Assembly (NCBI RefSeq): GCF_003285545.1
Contig: NZ_QLNV01000004.1
Span: forward strand, 248,001 to 312,000
Length of the DNA stretch: 64,000 nt
Direction: 5' to 3'
Source of the DNA: Sinomicrobium soli
GTDB taxonomy: Bacteria; Bacteroidota; Bacteroidia; Flavobacteriales; Flavobacteriaceae
The stretch's first letter is position 1, and each line of letters begins with the position of its first letter. This document shows, piece by piece, positions 24,604-50,068 of the stretch. The translations under genes and the position numbers were made by a program. The notes beneath the pieces are model-generated. The model worked only from the letters and a program-made list of their open reading frames with translations, ran no database searches and had not been told where the DNA came from.

Positions 24604-25371
24604 TTACCGGACCGAACTGATAAACCCGGGAATGGCGTCGACGCCCTTTTCGTTCAGGAACCTGATAAAAGCCGAACCGATGATGGCGCCTTTGGCCCTT
24701 TTGGTGGCTGCTTCGAAAGTGTCGGCATTGCTGATACCGAACCCGACGATCTGCGGGTTTTTCAGCTGTAAGTTATATATGCGTTCGAAATACTGTTTCT
24801 GTGTATCCCCGAAAGTATTTTTTGCCCCGGTAACACTGGCAGAACTGACCATATAGATAAACCCGCCGGATACGGAGTCGATATAGCGGATACGGTCGTC
24901 AGGGGTTTGTGGGGTGATGAGGAAGATATTGGCCAGCCCGTATTTTTCGAACAGCGGTTTATACTCTTCCTGATAGACATCGACGGGAAGGTCGGGAATA
25001 ATAAGTCCGTCAATCCCGGTTTCTGCGCATTTTGCACAAAAAGCCTCGACCCCGTATTGCATGACGGGATTGAAATATCCCATAATGATCAGGGGGATGT
25101 GTACGGTATTCCTGATGCCTTTCAGCTGTTCGAAGAGTTTACCGGTCGTCATGCCGTTTTTCAGCGCCTGCGTAGAGCTTTCCTGTATGGTAGGGCCATC
25201 TGCGAGGGGATCGCTGAAGGGCAATCCGATCTCCAGCATATCCGCTCCGCTGTCCTGTAGTTTTTCAATGATGGTTGCCGTATCTTCCAGGGCAGGATAG
25301 CCGGCGGTAAAATATATGGACAGGATCTTTTTGTCTTCCTGTAGTTTCTGGTGAATTCTGTTTGTGGTCAT
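24604..25371 (-). CDS. trpA: tryptophan synthase alpha subunit
   Basis: 255 residues, TIM barrel. TrpA cleaves indole-3-glycerol phosphate to indole and glyceraldehyde 3-phosphate, and indole is channelled to TrpB. The catalytic Glu lies in MLEIGLPFSDPLADGPTIQ and the second acid in GIDGLIIPDLPVDVYQEE; phosphate-binding GFGISN is present. It is the last gene of the trp operon. Confidence 0.97.
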   Translation of the reverse strand: MTTNRIHQKLQEDKKILSIYFTAGYPALEDTATIIEKLQDSGADMLEIGLPFSDPLADGPTIQESSTQALKNGMTTGKLFEQLKGIRNTVHIPLIIMGYFNPVMQYGVEAFCAKCAETGIDGLIIPDLPVDVYQEEYKPLFEKYGLANIFLITPQTPDDRIRYIDSVSGGFIYMVSSASVTGAKNTFGDTQKQYFERIYNLQLKNPQIVGFGISNADTFEAATKRAKGAIIGSAFIRFLNEKGVDAIPGFISSVR

Positions 25372-25433
25372 ATAGGTGTATGATTTGTCTGTAATACATG
25401 AGGAACAGGCCTTCGGGCCTGTCCGTACTGCGG

Positions 25434-26666
25434 TTAAAGGCTGAAGTGATCGATATAGGTATTCAGGTCTTTGTCGCCGCGGCCGGACAGGGCTACGACT
25501 ACAATATCGTCCTTACCGAATTCCCGCTGTTCAAAAACGGCCAGGGCATGGCTGCTCTCAATGGCGGGAATGATCCCTTCGAGCTGGCACAGTTCCAGTC
25601 CGGCTTTCATGGCATCGTCATCTGTTATGGCTTTGAATTCGGCCCTTCCCGAAGTAAACAGGTGGGCATGCATGGGCCCTACCCCCGGATAGTCCAGCCC
25701 GGCCGAAATGGAATACGGCTCCGTGATCTGTCCGTCTTCAGTCTGCATCAGCAGTGTTTTGCATCCGTGGATGATCCCTTTGTGCCCCAGTACCGAAGTA
25801 GCGGCACTTTCTCCGGAGTCAATTCCTTTACCCGCTGCTTCTACTGCGATGATGCCTACATTTTCTTCGTCGAGGAAGTGGTAAAAAGTTCCGGCTGCAT
25901 TACTGCCACCCCCTATACAGGCTACTACATAGTCCGGGTTTTCCCTGCCTTCGTGTTCGAGAAGCTGCGTTCTGATCTCTTCGGAGATCACACTCTGGAA
26001 GCGGGTCACCATATCGGGATAGGGATGCGGCCCTATAGCCGAACCGATAATGTAATGGGTGTCTACGGGATTGTTGATCCAGTCGCGTATGGCTTCGTTG
26101 GTGGCGTCTTTCAGGGTCCGGCTTCCGGAAAGTGCGGGGCGCACTTCAGCGCCCAGCATTTTCATACGGGCCACATTGGGCGCCTGCCGGGCAATATCGA
26201 TCTCGCCCATATACACCACACATTCCATTCCCGTAAGGGCACAGACGGTAGCCGTGGCCACCCCGTGTTGCCCTGCGCCTGTTTCGGCAATGATCCTTGT
26301 TTTCCCGAGGCGCCTGGCCATAAGGATCTGTCCTATGGTATTGTTGATCTTATGTGCCCCGGTGTGGTTGAGGTCTTCCCGTTTCAGGTAGATACGCGTC
26401 CCGTATTTTTCAGACATCCGCCTGGCGAAATACAGCGGGGAAGGGCGTCCTACATAATTTTTCAGAAGCTGGTTGAACTCTTCCTTAAAAGAAGGGTCAC
26501 TCATGATTTCAAGGTATTTCCGCCGCAGTTCTTCTACGTTCGGATATAGCATTTCCGGGATAAAAGCTCCCCCGAACTCGCCGTAATATCCCCGTTCGCT
26601 GACGTGATAGGCGCCTTTACCTGCATTTCCGCCGATCGGAGCAGAACTTTTTACTGGTGCTGACAT
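25434..26666 (-). CDS. trpB: tryptophan synthase beta subunit
   Basis: 410 residues. The PLP enzyme makes L-tryptophan from indole and serine. The PLP lysine is in [11 protein letters not shown], and the phosphate-binding GGGSNAAG is intact; catalytic Glu lies in [11 protein letters not shown] 20-residue N-terminal extension rich in Ala/Gly/Ser is slightly longer than usual. It overlaps the end of trpF by 16 bases. Confidence 0.97.
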
Positions 26667-27304
26667 AGTATTTTCGATTTAAATTCTTTTAGTTTTCCGG
26701 TGTTCTTATAACCGGGTGCTGTTTCAAACCTGCTGTTTACATCGACTGCATGGCACAAACCCGCTACATTACCGTATTCAGGGCTGCTGAGGAATTCCAG
26801 GACGTTATTCCCCTCTTCCGGCCCGATTCCCCCGCTCAGGAAAAAAGGCTTCCCGGAAGGGTAGTCTTTAAGCACCTTCCAGTCGAAGGTATACCCGTTT
26901 CCCCCGGGGTGTTTCCCCCTGGTGTCGAAAAGGAAATAGTCTGCAGTGTCCTCAAAAGGAAAGAGCTGCCCGAAATCGAACTTGTCCTTTACTGAAAAGA
27001 CCTTGATGATCTCCGTTCCCGGCAGGGCCTCCCGGAGTTCCCTGCAATATGCCGCGGTTTCCCCGCCGTGCAGTTGTACGGCCTGTAAGCCGAAGCGGCC
27101 CACCTTTTCGGCGATCTCGCGGACCGTCGCGTTTACAAATACCCCGGTCTTCTTTATTTCCCGAGGTACTTCCGGCATATCCCCTTCAAAATATCTCGGA
27201 GACCTGTCGTAAAAGATGAACCCGAGGTAATCCGGCTTTAATCCGGCGATTTCCCTGATATTGTCCGGGTATTTCATACCGCATATCTTGAGTTTTACGG
27301 GCAT
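26651..27304 (-). CDS. trpF: phosphoribosylanthranilate isomerase
   Basis: 217 residues, TIM barrel. It isomerises N-(5'-phosphoribosyl)anthranilate to the CdRP intermediate. The catalytic Cys is in KICGMK near the N-terminus and the catalytic Asp in [15 protein letters not shown] is the phosphate site. It is six bases from trpC upstream and overlaps trpB. Confidence 0.96.
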
Positions 27305-27310
27305 GGCTTG

Positions 27311-28099
27311 TCAAGTTGTTAGTTTCCTGATAAAAGCAGCTGCGCTTTCACCGGGATTACCGGTTTTCATAAAATTTTCTCCGACGAGGAATCCCCGGTA
27401 CCCGAAATCCCTTAGTCCCGTAATGGTATTGTGATCGCTGATCCCGCTTTCGGACACTTTTACGAAATCGTCCGGGATCAGGGCCGACAGTTTTTCACTG
27501 GTTTCTATGCTTACCTCAAAGGTTTTCAGGTTGCGGTTATTGACCCCCAGCATATCCAGTGAAGGCATTACCGATTTGTGCAGTTCTTCTTCATTGTGGA
27601 CCTCGAGAAGGACTTCCAGGGAAAGGCTGCGGGCCAGTTCGGAAAAGGATTTGATCTCTTCTCTGGTCAGTACCGATGCGATAAGGAGAATGACATCTGC
27701 CCCGTAGGCCCTGGCTTCTATGAGCTGGTATTCGTCGATAATGAATTCTTTCCGCAGCAGGGGCACGGAGGTGCTGGCCCTGGCGAGCCAGAGGTCTTCG
27801 GGAGAGCCTCCGAAGTATTTTCCGTCGGTAAGGACGGATATGCCGCAGACCCCGGCTTTCTCGTAACCCGCGGCTACGTCGTATACGCTGAGGTCGTGGT
27901 TGATGACGGCCCGGGAAGGCGATCGCCGTTTGTGTTCTGCGATAATTCCCGTAAGGCTTTCCCTGAGCCTGGAAGCCAGGGAGAGGGTGGGTCTTTCAAA
28001 CAGCGTCGAGGCTTCCAGCTGGGCGACCGGGATAAGTGCTTTTTTCAAGGCGACTTCCCTGCGTTTATCGGTGATGATCCTGTCCAGTATATCAGACAT
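27311..28099 (-). CDS. trpC: indole-3-glycerol phosphate synthase
   Basis: 262 residues, TIM barrel. It closes the indole ring from CdRP. Family motifs IIAEHKRRSPSRAVI (catalytic Lys and Glu), LRKEFIIDEYQ, GVNNRNLKTFEV and VSESGI are in order. It is encoded separately from trpF, unlike the enterobacterial fusion. It starts 39 bases after trpD. Confidence 0.97.
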   Translation of the reverse strand: MSDILDRIITDKRREVALKKALIPVAQLEASTLFERPTLSLASRLRESLTGIIAEHKRRSPSRAVINHDLSVYDVAAGYEKAGVCGISVLTDGKYFGGSPEDLWLARASTSVPLLRKEFIIDEYQLIEARAYGADVILLIASVLTREEIKSFSELARSLSLEVLLEVHNEEELHKSVMPSLDMLGVNNRNLKTFEVSIETSEKLSALIPDDFVKVSESGISDHNTITGLRDFGYRGFLVGENFMKTGNPGESAAAFIRKLTT

Positions 28100-28138
28100 T
28101 TTTTTCAGTTTTTTAAAGTTAACGATAAGATACCGGCT

Positions 28139-29134
28139 TTAATCGGCGGAGATGTCCCGGAGTTTTTTCAGGGCGTGGAGCGCCTTCCCGGATTCCAGGC
28201 TTTCCCGGGCCATACCGAGGGCCTGTTGCGGGGCGATCTGCCGGGTTGTGGCAATGGCCAGTGCGGCATTGGCACAGACGACATTGTTCTGTGCCTCTGT
28301 ACCTTTTCCCTGCAGTACATTCATGAAAATGGCAGCGGATTCCTCGATGGAGTTTCCGCCTTTTATGGCATCCTGTTGCAACGGCGCCAGTCCGAAATCA
28401 GACGGGGAAAGCATTTCTTCCGACTGGTTCCGGATCGCCTTGGCCGGACCGGTAAGCGACAGCTCGTCATAACCGTCCAGGGTATGGAGGATGGTGTAAT
28501 TCTTGTCCGTATTCTGGTACAGGTATCCGTACATCCGTGCCAGTTCCAGGTTGAATACGCCTACCATCTGGTTTTTCGGAAAGGCAGGATTAACCATCGG
28601 TCCCAGCATATTGAAAAACGTTTTCACGGCCAGTTCCTTCCGGATGGGGCCCACGTTTTTCATGGCCGGGTGAAACAGCGGGGCGTGAAGGACGCAGATG
28701 TTGGTTTCGTCCAGTGACCTCCGGAGAAAGTCCATGTCACTGGAAAACCGTATCCCGAGAAATTCCATGACATTGCTGGAACCACATTTTGAGGATACCC
28801 CGTAATTTCCGTGTTTGGCTACCGGCACCCCTGCACCGGCGGTGACAAAGGAAGCCAGGGTCGAGATGTTAAAAGTGTCTTTTCCGTCTCCCCCGGTACC
28901 GCAGAGATCAATAACCTCGGTGCCGTTGAGGTCTACTGCTATACACAGTTCCAGCAGGGCATCTCGGAAGCCTTCCAGTTCTTCCACGGTAATGCTGCGC
29001 ATCATATAAACCGTAAGAAATGCAGCGATCTGGCTGGTGTTGTACGCTCCCCCGGAGATATTTACCAGCACGTTCCTGGCTTCTTCCTTGGAAATGGTTT
29101 CGTGATTGATCAGTCTGTTTAGTATGGCTTTCAT
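28139..29134 (-). CDS. trpD: anthranilate phosphoribosyltransferase
   Basis: 331 residues. It transfers the phosphoribosyl group from PRPP to anthranilate. The PRPP loop DLCGTGGDGKDTFNIST and the anthranilate-site KHGNYGVSSKCGSSNVME and GPMVNPAFPKNQMVGVF are intact. It is a stand-alone enzyme, not fused to TrpG. The 120 bases between trpG and trpD hold palindromic repeats. Confidence 0.97.
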   Translation of the reverse strand: MKAILNRLINHETISKEEARNVLVNISGGAYNTSQIAAFLTVYMMRSITVEELEGFRDALLELCIAVDLNGTEVIDLCGTGGDGKDTFNISTLASFVTAGAGVPVAKHGNYGVSSKCGSSNVMEFLGIRFSSDMDFLRRSLDETNICVLHAPLFHPAMKNVGPIRKELAVKTFFNMLGPMVNPAFPKNQMVGVFNLELARMYGYLYQNTDKNYTILHTLDGYDELSLTGPAKAIRNQSEEMLSPSDFGLAPLQQDAIKGGNSIEESAAIFMNVLQGKGTEAQNNVVCANAALAIATTRQIAPQQALGMARESLESGKALHALKKLRDISAD

Positions 29135-29152
29135 GCTTGAAAGGGTTTATGT

Positions 29153-29216
29153 TGAGACGCATAATCATGCATCTTTACTTATCATGAGACGTATAATCAT
29201 ACGTCTTTACTTATCA
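29153..29216. repeat. two tandem 32-base palindromic repeats (REP-like)
   Basis: Units 29153-29184 and 29185-29216 differ at only three positions. Each forms a hairpin (AGACG[C/T]AT, loop AATC, AT[G/A]C[A/G]TCT). Two differences are compensatory (a C-G pair in unit 1 is T-A in unit 2), and the third turns a C-A mismatch into C-G. They lie between trpG and trpD. Confidence 0.88.
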
Positions 29217-29230
29217 GGATTGGGGTTACG

Positions 29231-29258
29231 GTAAGGGCGTATTGCAATACGCCCTTAC
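29231..29258. repeat. 28-base perfect palindrome at the trpG stop codon
   Basis: GTAAGGGCGTATTG is followed directly by its exact reverse complement. The trpG stop codon (29255-29257) lies inside the right arm. It resembles the short palindromes scattered in Bacteroidetes genomes; no T run follows, so it is not a typical terminator. Confidence 0.85.
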
Positions 29259-29836
29259 GGGGATGGGCGAAGCCAGTTCTCAAGTATCCTTTTCCCGTCC
29301 GGGGTGAGTACCGATTCGGGGTGGTACTGTACTCCCCTGACATCGAATTCCCGGTGGCGGAGCGACATGACCTGTCCGTTCTCGTCAAACGAAGTGGCTT
29401 CGAGGACTTCCGGAAGTTCGGGGTCCACGACCCAGGAATGGTAACGGCCCGCTTCGATCTCCCTGTCCAGGCCCCTGAAAAGCGGTTCGTCGTCTACGGT
29501 GATGGTCACCCTGGTGGCCACCCCGTGATATACCTTATTCAGGTTAATGATCTTTCCGCCGAAGACTTCGCCTATGGCCTGCTGGCCGAGACAGACCCCG
29601 AGAATGCTCTTGGTCGGGGCATATTTCCTGATGATGTCTTTGAGAAGGCCGGCTTCATCCGGAATTCCGGGACCGGGCGACAGCAGTATCTTGTCAAACC
29701 CTTCGGCTTCTTCCAGTTGAAGCTGGTCATTGCGCTTTACGGTAACTTCTCCTCCGAGGTCTTCGAGATAATGTACGAGGTTGTATGTGAAACTGTCGTA
29801 ATTATCGATAACCAGTATTTTCTGTGTTTTCATCAC
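29255..29836 (-). CDS. trpG: anthranilate synthase component II (glutamine amidotransferase)
   Basis: 193 residues, class I amidotransferase. The nucleophile Cys is in LGVCLGQQAIGE and the His/Glu pair in VQYHPESVL. It supplies ammonia to TrpE. The sequence may also serve para-aminobenzoate synthesis, as in some bacteria with a shared subunit; the location in the trp operon favours TrpG. It lies 29 bases after trpE. Confidence 0.95.
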   Translation of the reverse strand: MMKTQKILVIDNYDSFTYNLVHYLEDLGGEVTVKRNDQLQLEEAEGFDKILLSPGPGIPDEAGLLKDIIRKYAPTKSILGVCLGQQAIGEVFGGKIINLNKVYHGVATRVTITVDDEPLFRGLDREIEAGRYHSWVVDPELPEVLEATSFDENGQVMSLRHREFDVRGVQYHPESVLTPDGKRILENWLRPSP

Positions 29837-29865
29837 TTTGCTGTTCTTGTATTGGTAGGACGTGA

Positions 29866-31260
29866 TTAAATGCTTTCGGCCAGGTCCATGGCTTTGTTCA
29901 GGGCCCCGAGTTTGTTAAAGACCTCCTGTAATTCGCTTTCGGGGCTCGATTCGGATACGATCCCGGCCCCCGCCTGGTAATATAGTCTGTGGTTTTTGCT
30001 GAGAAAGGTCCGGATCATGATCGCATGGTTGAAGTTACCCTCAAAATCCATAAACCCTATGGCGCCGCCATAAAAGTCACGGTTACAGTTCTCATATTTA
30101 TCTATAAGCTGCATGGCCATGTGTTTAGGCGCTCCGCTGAGCGTACCCGCAGGGAACGTATCGGCGACGACCTGCATGGTAGAGGCCTGGTCATGAAGTT
30201 TGCCGGTTACTTTAGAGACAAGGTGGATGACATGTGAGAAGAACTGGACTTCGCGGTAGGTTTCTACTTTTACATGATGTCCGTGCCGGCTAAGGTCGTT
30301 CCGGGCGAGGTCTACGAGCATCACGTGCTCGGCATTTTCCTTGGCATCTTCGGCCAGTTGCCTGGCAAGTACGGTATCCTGTTCGTCGTTTCCGGTACGG
30401 CGGAAGGTCCCGGCTATGGGGTGTATTTCCGCTTTTCTGTCTTTAACCACGAGCTGGGCTTCCGGTGAAGAACCGAATATCTTGAAATTTCCGTAATCAA
30501 AAAAGAAGAGGTAGGGGGAAGGGTTAATGCTTCTCAGGGCACGGTACACGTTAAATTCGTCTCCTTTGAATTCCTGGGAAAATCTCCTGGACAATACCAG
30601 TTGAAATACATCGCCCCGGTAACAGTGTTTTTTAGCGTATTCCACACTCTTTTTGTACGCCTCGTCGGTCAGGTTGGAAACAGCTGTCCCGGTTTTGGTA
30701 AAATTGTAGGTGGCAAAGTTTTTGGAGCGGAGCAATTGTTCGATCTCCGGAATATTATTGGTGCCATCCGTACTGTGACAGAAAATATAAGCCTCGTTTT
30801 TAAAATGATTGATGGCTATGATGTTTTGATAAACCGCATAATAGATGTCCGGGATATCAAGCGTATCCTCTTTGCGGGAGATCTCGATATCCTCGAAATG
30901 GCGGACACCGTCGTAGGCGATATAGCCGAAAAGCCCTTTATTGATAAATTTAAACCCGTTGTCCTCCGTCCGGAACGCACGGGCAAAATCGTGTATGGCC
31001 TGTGGTACATCGGTACTTTTTTCGATGTTGGCCTGCTTGCTCCGGCCGTCGGGATAGGAAGTGGTAATAATTCCTTTTTTTACTTCTATGCTGGCTATGG
31101 GATTGCAGCATATATAAGAGAAACTGTTGTTGTTGGCGTGATAGTCACTACTCTCCAGCAGGAGGCTGCCGGGATACCTGTCGCGTATTTTAAGGTAAAC
31201 GCTGACGGGAGTTATGGTGTCTGCGAGTATTTGTTTGTAATGTGTGGTCAGGTGTATCAT
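29866..31260 (-). CDS. trpE: anthranilate synthase component I
   Basis: 464 residues from ATG 31260 (MIHLTTHYKQ). It makes anthranilate from chorismate with ammonia from TrpG. The tryptophan feedback-site motif LLESS is at about residues 34-38, and the chorismate-binding core is complete (FQLVLSRRF, IAGTFRRTGNDEQD, EHVMLVDLARNDL, PAGTLSGAPK, YYQAGAGIV). It is the first structural gene of trpEGDCFBA and is preceded by an attenuator. Confidence 0.97.
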   Translation of the reverse strand: MIHLTTHYKQILADTITPVSVYLKIRDRYPGSLLLESSDYHANNNSFSYICCNPIASIEVKKGIITTSYPDGRSKQANIEKSTDVPQAIHDFARAFRTEDNGFKFINKGLFGYIAYDGVRHFEDIEISRKEDTLDIPDIYYAVYQNIIAINHFKNEAYIFCHSTDGTNNIPEIEQLLRSKNFATYNFTKTGTAVSNLTDEAYKKSVEYAKKHCYRGDVFQLVLSRRFSQEFKGDEFNVYRALRSINPSPYLFFFDYGNFKIFGSSPEAQLVVKDRKAEIHPIAGTFRRTGNDEQDTVLARQLAEDAKENAEHVMLVDLARNDLSRHGHHVKVETYREVQFFSHVIHLVSKVTGKLHDQASTMQVVADTFPAGTLSGAPKHMAMQLIDKYENCNRDFYGGAIGFMDFEGNFNHAIMIRTFLSKNHRLYYQAGAGIVSESSPESELQEVFNKLGALNKAMDLAESI

Positions 31261-31290: not shown

Positions 31291-31323
31291 CAAAAAAGGC
31301 TTGTCGTGATTGACAAGCCTTAT
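31291..31323 (-). terminator. trp attenuator terminator hairpin
   Basis: In the minus-strand transcript AAGGCTTGTC pairs perfectly with GACAAGCCTT around a 6-base loop and is followed by a run of U (A run at 31292-31297). It lies 30 bases before trpE and 34 bases after the leader stop codon, the place expected for an attenuator. Confidence 0.93.
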
Positions 31324-31366
31324 ATATTTTTCTTAAAAAATACCTGTAAAGGGCTTAGCTCACGAC
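31303..31366 (-). promoter_or_regulatory. trp antiterminator pairing
   Basis: The end of the leader frame (31349-31366; GTCGTGA then AAGCCCTT in the transcript) can pair with 31303-31321 (AAGGCTT then TCACGAC), giving 7 + 7 base pairs with a small internal loop. This uses the 5' arm of the terminator, so the two structures exclude each other. A ribosome stalled on the Trp codons would leave the first segment free. Confidence 0.8.
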
Positions 31367-31417
31367 GTGTTGACGTAAGTTGCTCCACCACCAGATATTG
31401 TTTAATGAATTATGCAT
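31355..31417 (-). CDS. trpL: trp operon leader peptide with three consecutive Trp codons
   Basis: A 20-codon frame runs from ATG 31417 to TAA 31355. Residues 9-11 are WWW (three TGG in a row), preceded by MHNSLNNI. Trp is otherwise rare, so three in 20 codons just ahead of an alternative-hairpin region is strong evidence for ribosome-mediated attenuation: low charged tRNA-Trp stalls the ribosome, lets the antiterminator form and allows trpE transcription. There is no clear Shine-Dalgarno, as is normal in this phylum. Confidence 0.92.
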   Translation of the reverse strand: MHNSLNNIWWWSNLRQHVVS

Positions 31418-31433
31418 TGCTGTTATTTGGATA

Positions 31434-31463
31434 CAAATTTAGAAAGGAAAATGAAATGTGCAA
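31434..31463 (-). promoter_or_regulatory. trp operon promoter
   Basis: On the minus strand TTG (31463-31461), a 19-base spacer and TAAATTTG (31441-31434) fit the Bacteroidetes consensus exactly. The expected transcription start is about 10 bases before the leader ATG. Confidence 0.82.
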
Positions 31464-31713: not shown

Positions 31714-32292
31714 TTAGAAATTGAGGTCTACCACCAGGTCGAACTCGTCGTAGATAGTCTTGTCGCCAAGATTGTCGAAAAAGCTACCGGACCCGTAGCG
31801 GACATCGTATTTGGTACGATCGATCTTTACGGCTCCCGTAGCCTTGTTTCCGTATACCGAAAGTTCGAAGGTCACGGGGTGGGTCTTGCCTTTAACGGTA
31901 AGGTCGGCAGTAACCTCGTAGGCATTTTTTCCTGCCGGTTTTACCTTGGTAAATGCCATGCTGGCCGTAGGATGTGTGCCGATACCGAAAAAATCGTCAG
32001 ATTTGAGGTGTCCGTCAAGGTTATCCTTGTTTTCCCCTTCGAGATCCGTGGAGCTGATTGAGGTCATATCCACAACAAACTCACCTCCGGTAAGCTGATC
32101 TCCGTCAAAGATGAGTGATCCCTTCTGGAGGGCTATGGTCCCTTCGTGGGAACCGGTAACCTTATATCCTTTCCAGGTGACCTTGCTTGTCTTTACATCG
32201 ACCTCTTTGGTTTCGTTGTTTTCAGTCGTAAATGCCGATGCTCCAAAGGCCACTACGAGGGTAAGCGCTGCTTGTACAAATTTATTTTTCAT
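31714..32292 (-). CDS. YceI family protein
   Basis: 192 residues. A signal peptide (about residues 1-21, ending FGASAFT) precedes a YceI lipocalin-like domain: VDVKTSKVTWKGYKVTGSHEGT, GGEFVVDMTSI, KSDDFFGIGTHPTASM and DRTKYDVRYGSGSFFDN. YceI proteins are periplasmic beta-barrels that bind isoprenoid-type lipids. It lies 45 bases downstream of the nitroreductase gene, in a MarR-nitroreductase-YceI set. Confidence 0.94.
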   Translation of the reverse strand: MKNKFVQAALTLVVAFGASAFTTENNETKEVDVKTSKVTWKGYKVTGSHEGTIALQKGSLIFDGDQLTGGEFVVDMTSISSTDLEGENKDNLDGHLKSDDFFGIGTHPTASMAFTKVKPAGKNAYEVTADLTVKGKTHPVTFELSVYGNKATGAVKIDRTKYDVRYGSGSFFDNLGDKTIYDEFDLVVDLNF

Positions 32293-48201: not shown

Positions 48202-48283
48202 GGGGAGATACTCAAGCGGCCAACGAGGACAGACTGTAAATCTGTTGGTTTTACCTTCGCAGGTTCGAATCCTGCTCTCCCCA
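48202..48283 (+). tRNA. tRNA-Tyr (GTA)
   Basis: 82 bases, class II with a long variable arm. The acceptor GGGGAGA pairs with TCTCCCC; anticodon loop CTGTAAA gives GTA; T loop GGTTCGAATCC. CCA is not encoded. Confidence 0.95.
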
Positions 48284-48284
48284 C

Positions 48285-48348
48285 AAAGTTTCCGGATCGT
48301 TGGCGTCAAAAGCCAAAGGTTTTTGTAAGCCGACGATCCGGAAACTTT
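48285..48348. repeat. 64-base hairpin between tRNA-Tyr and tRNA-Gly
   Basis: Two 20-base arms (48285-48304 and 48329-48348) pair fully with one G-T wobble; the 24-base loop can form a second helix (CAAAAGCC with GGTTTTTG). It begins two bases after tRNA-Tyr. Confidence 0.85.
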
Positions 48349-48350
48349 GA

Positions 48351-48398
48351 GTAAGGGTCCCCCTTACGGATCACCGAGCGCAGCGAGGTAATCCTTTT
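48351..48398 (+). terminator. two small hairpins, the second followed by T
   Basis: GTAAGGG-TCC-CCCTTAC (48351-48367) is followed by GGAT-ACC paired with GGT-ATCC around 11 bases (48368-48394) and TTTT. A terminator or processing signal is inferred. From here to tRNA-Gly (48508) no gene is visible. Confidence 0.5.
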
Positions 48399-48507
48399 GT
48401 GGACAGGAGTTGAGCCGGAGTTTTTGTGGAGGTACAGGTCCTGGGGAAGATGATGAAGTGGAAGTTTGTTGTTTTCTTATCAGAAGAATGAAAATCTGAA
48501 ATAATAT

Positions 48508-48580
48508 GCGGGAGTAGCTCAGTTGGTAGAGCGTCAGCCTTCCAAGCTGAATGTCGCGAGTTCGAACCTCGTCTCCCGCT
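48508..48580 (+). tRNA. tRNA-Gly (TCC)
   Basis: 73 bases. Acceptor GCGGGAG pairs with CTCCCGC; anticodon loop CTTCCAA gives TCC; T arm GCGAGTTCGAACCTCGT is intact. Confidence 0.96.
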
Positions 48581-48613
48581 CTTGTCTTTCCCTGGAAACC
48601 AGGGGTTATAATT

Positions 48614-48685
48614 GCCGACGTAGCTCAGGGGTAGAGCGTTTCCTTGGTAAGGAAGAGGTCACGGGTTCAAATCCCGTCGTTGGCT
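48614..48685 (+). tRNA. tRNA-Thr (GGT)
   Basis: 72 bases. Acceptor GCCGACG pairs with CGTTGGC (with G-T pairs); anticodon loop TTGGTAA gives GGT; T arm CGGGTTCAAATCCCG. It directly precedes tuf. Confidence 0.95.
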
Positions 48686-48696
48686 CACGGAGAACT

Positions 48697-48704
48697 TAAA
48701 TTTG
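48697..48704 (+). promoter_or_regulatory. possible -7 box of a tuf promoter
   Basis: TAAATTTG (48697-48704) matches the -7 consensus and lies just after tRNA-Thr, but no TTG stands at the usual distance (the nearest, inside the tRNA, is 14 bases away). tuf may instead be read from the tRNA promoter. Confidence 0.4.
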
Positions 48705-48740
48705 AACACTAATATATAACTAAGATTAAATTATTGAATC

Positions 48741-49928
48741 ATGGCAAAGGAAACTTTTGATCGTTCCAAACCGCACCTCAATATCGGTACTATTGGACAC
48801 GTGGATCACGGTAAAACAACTCTAACCGCAGCTATTACCAAAGTTTTGGCGGATGCCGGTTTTTCTGAGGCAAGAAGTTTTGATCAGATTGATAACGCTC
48901 CGGAAGAAAAAGAAAGGGGTATCACTATTAATACATCTCACGTAGAATATCAGACAGCGAACCGTCACTATGCACACGTTGACTGTCCCGGTCACGCCGA
49001 CTACGTAAAGAACATGGTTACCGGTGCTGCCCAGATGGACGGTGCTATCCTGGTTGTTGCTGCTACTGACGGTCCTATGCCTCAGACACGTGAGCACATC
49101 CTTCTCGGACGTCAGGTTGGTGTTCCCCGTATTGTGGTTTTCCTGAACAAAGTTGACCTTGTTGACGATCCTGAGCTGCTTGAGCTCGTTGATATGGAAG
49201 TAAGGGATCTGCTGAGCTTCTATGACTATGACGGAGATAACGGTCCTGTTATCCAGGGGTCTGCTCTTGGTGCGCTTAACGGTGAGCAGGAGTGGGTTGA
49301 TACCGTACTGAAACTTATGGAAGCTGTAGATGAGTGGATCGAGCTGCCGCAAAGGGATGTGGACAAAGACTTCCTGATGCCTGTTGAAGATGTATTTACT
49401 ATTACAGGCCGTGGTACCGTAGCTACAGGACGTATCGAAACTGGTGTTGCCAAAACCGGTGACCCCGTTGAGATCATCGGTATGGGAGCTGAGAAACTGA
49501 CTTCTACCATTACCGGGGTTGAGATGTTCCGTAAGATACTGGACAGAGGTGAGGCCGGAGATAACGTAGGTCTTCTTTTGAGGGGTATTGAAAAGACCCA
49601 GATCAAAAGAGGTATGGTTATCTGTAAGCCCGGATCTGTAACTCCTCACGCCAAATTCAAGGCTGAGGTATATATCCTGAAAAAAGAAGAAGGTGGTCGT
49701 CACACACCATTCCACAACAACTACCGTCCCCAGTTCTACGTACGTACGACTGACGTGACAGGAACTATTTCCCTGCCTGACGGAGTTGAAATGGTAATGC
49801 CCGGTGACAACCTTACCATTACCGTTGAGCTGATCCAGCCTATCGCTCTTAACGTTGGTCTGCGTTTCGCGATCCGTGAAGGTGGTAGAACGGTAGGTGC
49901 CGGACAGGTTACCGAAATATTAGACTAA
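48741..49928 (+). CDS. tuf: translation elongation factor Tu
   Basis: 395 residues. The GTPase brings aminoacyl-tRNA to the ribosome. The P-loop GHVDHGKTT, switch region [26 protein letters not shown] and NKVD motifs are intact, followed by domains 2 and 3. Codon use is biased toward frequent codons (for example many GGT and GTT), unlike the neighbouring genes, as expected for a highly expressed gene. It is followed by a terminator-like hairpin and tRNA-Trp. Confidence 0.98.
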
Positions 49929-49953
49929 TTCCAGTCTTGGTTTTATATAAGTA

Positions 49954-49993
49954 AAAGCCGGAAGAGCTTGAATTTCCAAGCGCTTCCGGCTTT
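49954..49993 (+). terminator. hairpin between tuf and tRNA-Trp
   Basis: Two 17-base arms (49954-49970 and 49977-49993) pair with one A-G mismatch around AATTTC. The right arm ends in TTT directly before the tRNA. It may end the tuf transcript or separate tuf from the downstream tRNA-secE transcript. Confidence 0.75.
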
Positions 49994-49997
49994 ACCA

Positions 49998-50068
49998 ACG
50001 GGTGTAGTTCAAGGGTAGAATAGCGGTCTCCAAAACCGTTGATGGGAGTTCGAATCTCTCCACCCGTG
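49998..50068 (+). tRNA. tRNA-Trp (CCA)
   Basis: 71 bases. Acceptor ACGGGTG pairs with CACCCGT; anticodon loop CTCCAAA gives CCA; T arm GGGAGTTCGAATCTCTC. It is the tRNA sensed by the trp attenuator described at 31355-31417. Confidence 0.95.

Follow-up and report, generated by a model that had tools for sequence, protein, structure and literature searches.

A Bacteroid-trp leader ahead of trpEGDCFBA in Sinomicrobium soli and a candidate antiterminator helix between its stop-codon box and the terminator loop

The trp operon and its leader region

The window, the whole stretch of 64,000 nucleotides from Sinomicrobium soli that was analysed, carries the operon trpEGDCFBA on its minus strand. The matches of trpG, trpD and trpC were above the NCBIfam cut-offs, and those of TrpE and TrpF were the best of their kind, yet under them; TrpE and TrpA were above the Pfam cut-offs, and TrpB was called from a Pfam PALP match and its position adjoining TrpA. 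TrpE shares 97% identity with its Sinomicrobium oceani counterpart, in agreement with the flavobacterial assignment made by the first-pass annotation. A gene for a YceI-like protein (31714-32292, minus strand; NCBIfam match under the cut-off) precedes the trp promoter in the same orientation, and four tRNA genes are located at 48202-50068 on the plus strand. A leader on the plus strand was ruled out, since the operon and the Rfam match described below are both on the minus strand. The features of the locus are as follows:

24604-31260, minus strand: operon trpEGDCFBA
29866-31260, minus strand: trpE, the first gene of the operon
31291-31463, minus strand: whole Trp leader region, upstream of trpEGDCFBA
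31434-31463, minus strand: promoter-like element TTG-N19-TAAATTTG (from the sequence)
31312-31437, minus strand: RF01692 match, containing the 1:2 stem and ending with the terminator 5' arm
31355-31417, minus strand: leader peptide frame of 20 codons, ATG to TAA, encoding MHNSLNNIWWWSNLRQHVVS and then a stop
31385-31393, minus strand: Trp sensor, TGG TGG TGG
31360-31366, minus strand: box A, GUCGUGA, candidate 5' strand of the outer antiterminator helix (from comparison and folding)
31355-31357, minus strand: leader stop codon
31349-31357, minus strand: UAAGCCCUU, predicted inner antiterminator strand with its partner at 31314-31321 (from the stalled-ribosome fold)
31324-31343, minus strand: predicted A/U hairpin of 8 bp inside the antiterminator (from the stalled-ribosome fold)
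31312-31321, minus strand: terminator 5' arm, AAGGCUUGUC
31303-31309, minus strand: UCACGAC (terminator loop and top of the 3' arm), candidate 3' strand of the outer antiterminator helix (from comparison)
31296-31305, minus strand: terminator 3' arm, GACAAGCCUU, followed by the T run

The promoter-like element, the 20-codon frame with three consecutive Trp codons (WWW) and the 10-bp terminator, which the first-pass annotation had read from the letters, are all present in this order. We take the promoter-like element to be of the Bacteroidetes -33/-7 type; TAnnTTTG occurs within ~40 nt upstream of the leader ATG in 161 of 179 leaders, as a raw count uncontrolled for the chance level. The terminator, AAGGCTTGTC-AATCAC-GACAAGCCTT (31296-31321), forms a perfect hairpin of 10 bp around a 6-nt loop, with T's after it, placing an intrinsic terminator between the leader frame and the first gene. 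Box A begins 18 nt past the last Trp codon and ends 2 nt ahead of the leader stop codon.

Membership of the Bacteroid-trp family and distribution among relatives

The leader (31437-31312) matches the Rfam family RF01692, Bacteroid-trp, over model positions 1-131 of 131 with 61.5 bits against a cut-off of 49 (E = 4.3e-5 for a search over the whole window), and this is the single match in the genome. Its score, the trp genes downstream and the consecutive Trp codons are all those of a "Bacteroidete tryptophan peptide leader RNA", as the family is described. RcsR1, the trpB motif and other Rfam matches on the same stretch were each under their own cut-off. The Bacteroid-trp motif was tabulated as a probable cis-regulatory RNA of Bacteroidetes by Weinberg et al. 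in 2010 (PMC2864571), and the present leader resembles it in its full-length match, its frame with Trp codons, its position before trp genes and its occurrence in Bacteroidetes. In Flavobacterium psychrophilum, a 2019 study describes Bacteroid-trp as conserved ahead of a trp operon that is co-transcribed with an elastinolytic protease gene, and compares it to attenuation in E. coli (PMC6414381); the same element thus stands before the trp operon in both organisms. The leader is therefore a member of a catalogued family and ordinary in kind, and the suggestion that it was probably unannotated, a gap in knowledge, was mistaken in view of RF01692 and of these reports from 2010 and 2019. The 131-position model of RF01692, however, stops at the terminator 5' arm and has no room for a helix in which the box pairs with the loop and 3' arm of the terminator, since these lie beyond it, and the passage on F. 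psychrophilum (PMC6414381) gives no structure for the flavobacterial antiterminator. None of the papers listed by our literature searches dealt with a trp antiterminator of Bacteroidetes, though the supplementary alignments of PMC2864571 may already draw such a helix. The complete antiterminator is the sole part of the finding that may be new.

RF01692 was found in all six genomes of the genus, including that of the window (five above the cut-off), in 141 of 199 genomes of a family sample (123 above the cut-off) and, with strict filters, in 42 of 395 genomes across the phylum. For comparison with the family of the window (f1), four other groups were each sampled around a known RF01692 match, and the element was present in 26 of 40 genomes of f12, 15 of 41 of f11, 8 of 41 of f3 and 6 of 40 of f2. 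Out of the 141 RF01692 matches of the family sample, 30 loci and 60 further ones, mostly the weakest, supplied leaders, together with matches that were in the comparison set before; after duplicate places were dropped, 181 leaders gave 180 distinct ones. A tblastn search with the seven Trp proteins of the window found a trp gene downstream of all 118 leaders that have at least 900 bases downstream; this test detects trp genes only, so that an unrelated gene in between would escape notice. The first trp gene found was trpE in 65 of 65 cases in f1, trpE in five and trpB in one in f2, and trpD in seven of seven in f3. In f11 and f12 (L087, L092, L113, L120, L128-L165), it was trpB instead of trpE in 40 of 40; the element keeps its position before trp genes in these two groups though the first recognised gene differs.

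The sensor and the terminator are well kept. WWW followed by the arm GGCTTGTC is present in 81 of 81 trpE upstream regions, comprising the window and the best 80 of 566 loci, a mostly Flavobacterium set used only for this count and for a hairpin scan. Our hairpin scorer detected a hairpin resembling a terminator in 80 of these 81, and the missed row, L042, carries identical terminator arms and loop; for several rows, the longest hairpin in its output was a different one at a more upstream position. Of the 180 leaders, 175 have a frame starting with ATG that contains two or more Trp codons, and the script found no frame in five; the longest Trp run is three in 154 leaders and two in 21. The terminator stem shows strong covariation, pairing in 99.4% of cells with double changes at 8 of 10 pairs, and a single leader of the 180, L255, yielded no terminator.

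Covariation between the leader box and the terminator loop

Box A is complementary over 7 bp to UCACGAC in the terminator loop and upper 3' arm. In the window alone, an equally good helix was reached by 182 of 20,000 shuffles, and the case for the helix therefore rests on comparison. When positions 10-30 nt past the last Trp codon were scanned, the best partner of the loop started at 16-21 nt in 162 of 168 leaders. We then made one alignment of the leader segments and another of the terminator segments, which kept the pairing from steering either of them, and gave a score to each of the 780 seven-pair windows that the two can form (179 rows, 174 distinct). The seven best windows by two-sided covariation (1.141 to 0.822) all lie on the box:loop register, against 0.708 for the best elsewhere, and so do the four best by fraction paired (0.891, 0.888, 0.787 and 0.778, against 0.765 elsewhere). 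With their own partners, 85.8% of cells pair over all leaders versus 80.6% with swapped partners, and none of 2000 swaps was as good; the same holds within f1 (86.1% versus 84.5%, 0 of 2000) and within f12 (96.5% versus 94.3%, 0 of 2000), while the observed pairing was reached by 130 of 2000 swaps in f11 and by 46 of 2000 in f2. At least six contiguous in-register pairs are formed by 110 of 121 leaders of f1, the other 11 having fewer than six, by 15 of 15 of f11 and 25 of 25 of f12, by 2 of 5 of f2, which is mixed in this respect, and by none of the 8 of f3. The helix is absent from f3, with 19 of 58 cells paired and 1307 of 2000 swaps as good.

In a further alignment (A1), made jointly over 64 diverse rows hand-picked for variety of box and loop, 90.9% of cells pair versus 85.4% when shuffled; since deviating rows were left out, this is an upper figure, the unselected one being the 85.8% given above. 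The rows absent from A1 are those of f3, the f2 rows L121, L177 and L179, and f1 rows with a deviating box, including L122, L124, L127, L209-L211, L235, L239, L248 and L265. Sliding the partner by 1-3 columns lowered the pairing to at most 58.2%. In total, 33 cells of A1 are changed on both sides, compared with a shuffled mean of 8.3 and 0 of 500 shuffles reaching the observed number, and the double changes fall at 5 of 8 pairs, a number reached by 5 of 500 shuffles. Distant variants still pair, such as GUUGGUUC:GAACCGAC in f2, GUCGCAAU:AUUGCGAC and UCGUAAA:UUUACGA in f1, and GUCGUAAG:CUUGCGGC in f12. The box may also touch the intact terminator loop in a kissing contact; in L149 and L175, a box starting with A faces an arm ending in U (AUUGUGAG:CUCACGAU), and these boxes favour a helix that would extend into the terminator 3' arm. 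L174 and L243, in which box and loop are strongly altered with the pairing kept, are good natural test cases. On the strength of the seven-pair scan, the swapped partners and A1, chance complementarity of box and loop was rejected. Kinship among the sequences inflates the shuffle tests; the separate alignments, the slid controls and the recurrence of the helix in f1, f11, f12 and two f2 leaders nevertheless argue against an artefact of kinship, though they do not take the place of a species tree. A plain terminator would have no need of a conserved loop; capture by the box would explain this conservation.

The box also bears a particular relation to the leader frame. In 152 leaders (28 of 180, having no box pattern or no frame, were left out, and the simple pattern may mark the wrong place in some rows), the box pattern lies in the three frames relative to the leader ATG in 112, 30 and 10 cases, the window being in a minority frame. 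The stop codon starts 3 nt after the first conserved T of the box in 98 of the 152 and 8 nt after it in 28, including the window. That the box is kept across different reading frames points to selection on the RNA, not on the peptide, and the position of the stop codon means that a ribosome finishing the peptide would cover the box, while one on any Trp codon would not.

Predicted switch and competing explanations

In the constrained folding, the ribosome was represented by a mask that, counted from the first base of the codon in the A site, runs 18 nt back (window) or 15 nt back (relatives) and 12 nt forward; the extent of the mask is an approximation. With the RNA of the window grown to the upper 3' arm of the terminator, the antiterminator is predicted with P 0.99-1.00 when the ribosome is on any Trp codon, with P at most 0.09 when no ribosome is present, and with 0 when the ribosome is at the stop codon, where the terminator forms. 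In the stalled-ribosome fold, UAAGCC(C)UU pairs with AAGGCUUG with one bulge and encloses the 8-bp A/U hairpin, so that the box helix, the UAAGCC:GGCUUG helix and the A/U hairpin are nested. The alternative pairing of 7+7 bp proposed in the first-pass annotation does exist in this fold, but makes up no more than the inner half of the antiterminator; it omits the outer 7 bp formed by 31360-31366 and 31303-31309, which show the highest covariation. With the full-length RNA, the terminator wins when the first (P 0.999) or the second (0.854) Trp codon is stalled, and the antiterminator wins only with the third (0.676). Since the folding is an equilibrium calculation whose result varies with the cut point of the RNA, and since the terminator regains the lead at full length, the switch would have to be kinetic, as it is in other attenuators.

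Folding was also run over the relatives, with 11 of 179 leaders skipped. When the A site holds the last Trp codon, the antiterminator exceeds 0.5 in 109 of 118 leaders of f1, 8 of 15 of f11, 11 of 23 of f12, 0 of 4 of f2 and 7 of 8 of f3; with the first Trp codon stalled, 90 of 118 f1 leaders switch. In ribosome-free folds, the antiterminator wins in 14 of 118 leaders of f1 and never in the other four groups. When the stop codon is occupied, the terminator exceeds 0.5 in 114 of 118 f1 leaders, and masking the box in the stalled fold restores the terminator in 116 of 118 (f1), 15 of 15 (f11), 20 of 23 (f12), 2 of 4 (f2) and 7 of 8 (f3). Since the mask lies over the box, the antiterminator is lost largely by construction in these masked folds, and what they can tell is confined to the predicted return of the terminator; the f2 and f3 results say little on the box helix, the helix chosen by the script often being another one. 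Comparison and constrained folding thus point to an antiterminator that is mutually exclusive with the terminator and would be freed by a stall on a Trp codon.

Three other explanations were weighed against the box:loop helix and the attenuator built on it. An antiterminator of the classical 2:3 kind, in which a pairing with the 5' arm (UAAGCC:GGCUUG or GUGAGCU:GGCUUGU) is active and the box:loop helix is incidental, is unlikely. Such pairings are present in many of the leaders listed, 76.5% of cells pair in the best 5'-arm window, and L125 and L126 (f3) and L121 (f2) seem to depend on this type (GGCAGCCU:GGGUUGCC, UCAAAGUCUU:AAGACUUUGA). Two-sided covariation in that window is nevertheless only 0.308 versus 1.141 for box:loop, masking the box brings the terminator back in nearly all f1 leaders (though the mask also hits part of GUGAGCU), and covariation of the terminator loop with the leader would be left unexplained if the antiterminator used the 5' arm alone. 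In the window, the 5'-arm pairing is found nested in the loop/3'-arm helix, not standing alone as in the E. coli type.

It is very improbable that the box is kept as leader-peptide coding or stop-codon context with the loop match as a by-product. The stop codon does lie 3 nt into the box pattern (UCG-UGA or UCG-UAA) in the majority of leaders counted above, and a G/A change at one pair therefore also swaps UGA and UAA; the pattern, however, stands in the other two frames in 30 and 10 of the 152 leaders, including the window and two others of the genus, and selection on peptide or stop cannot account for the matching changes in the terminator loop. Still less credible is a match by chance or a non-functional remnant that no longer regulates in this organism, given the recurrence of RF01692 in every genome of the genus and in most of the family sample, and the intact WWW, terminator and box of the window.

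In f3 (L125, L126, L166-L168, L170-L172), the RF01692 matches are without the box:loop helix, and trpD is next in the seven with downstream DNA. The leader of L125 and of L126 has the 5' arm of the terminator as its partner instead (GGCAGCCU:GGGUUGCC), which seems to be a different antiterminator within RF01692.

Sequence, conservation, covariation and constrained folding agree in supporting the Trp attenuator reading of the first-pass annotation, which had proposed looking for the Trp codons and an alternative pairing in relatives, where both are indeed kept. We consider it highly probable that trpEGDCFBA is under the control of a ribosome-mediated transcription attenuator belonging to the Bacteroid-trp family; the start of transcription, the stalling, the termination and the response to Trp are steps that we infer. 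When charged tRNA-Trp is ample, the ribosome would pass WWW and reach the stop codon, covering box A, and the 10-bp terminator would form. When it is scarce, the ribosome would stall on WWW and leave box A, 18 nt past the last Trp codon, free to capture the terminator loop and upper 3' arm as they emerge; the box helix and the inner UAAGCC:GGCUUG helix would together make up the antiterminator, and the polymerase would continue into trpE. With no ribosome on the leader, the 1:2 stem of the Rfam model would compete for the box, and the terminator would form.

The trpL leader of E. coli has a Trp-rich leader peptide, the 1:2, 2:3 and 3:4 logic and a U-run terminator, all of which recur here. In contrast to trpL, the antiterminator here is not confined to the 5' arm of the terminator: its outer helix takes in the loop and the upper end of the 3' arm. 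The box that does the capturing also overlaps the leader stop codon or lies next to it. We lean, with some reserve, towards an undescribed antiterminator geometry common to several Bacteroidota families, in which a box near the end of the leader frame, at the stop codon and in most cases 16-21 nt beyond the Trp run, is gated by the ribosome and captures the terminator's loop together with the upper part of its 3' arm. A simple test of the box:loop helix by compensatory mutations is possible in cultivable flavobacteria, and the helix could extend the RF01692 model. On paper, it completes the switch, and it accounts both for the conservation of the terminator loop and for where the leader stop codon lies.
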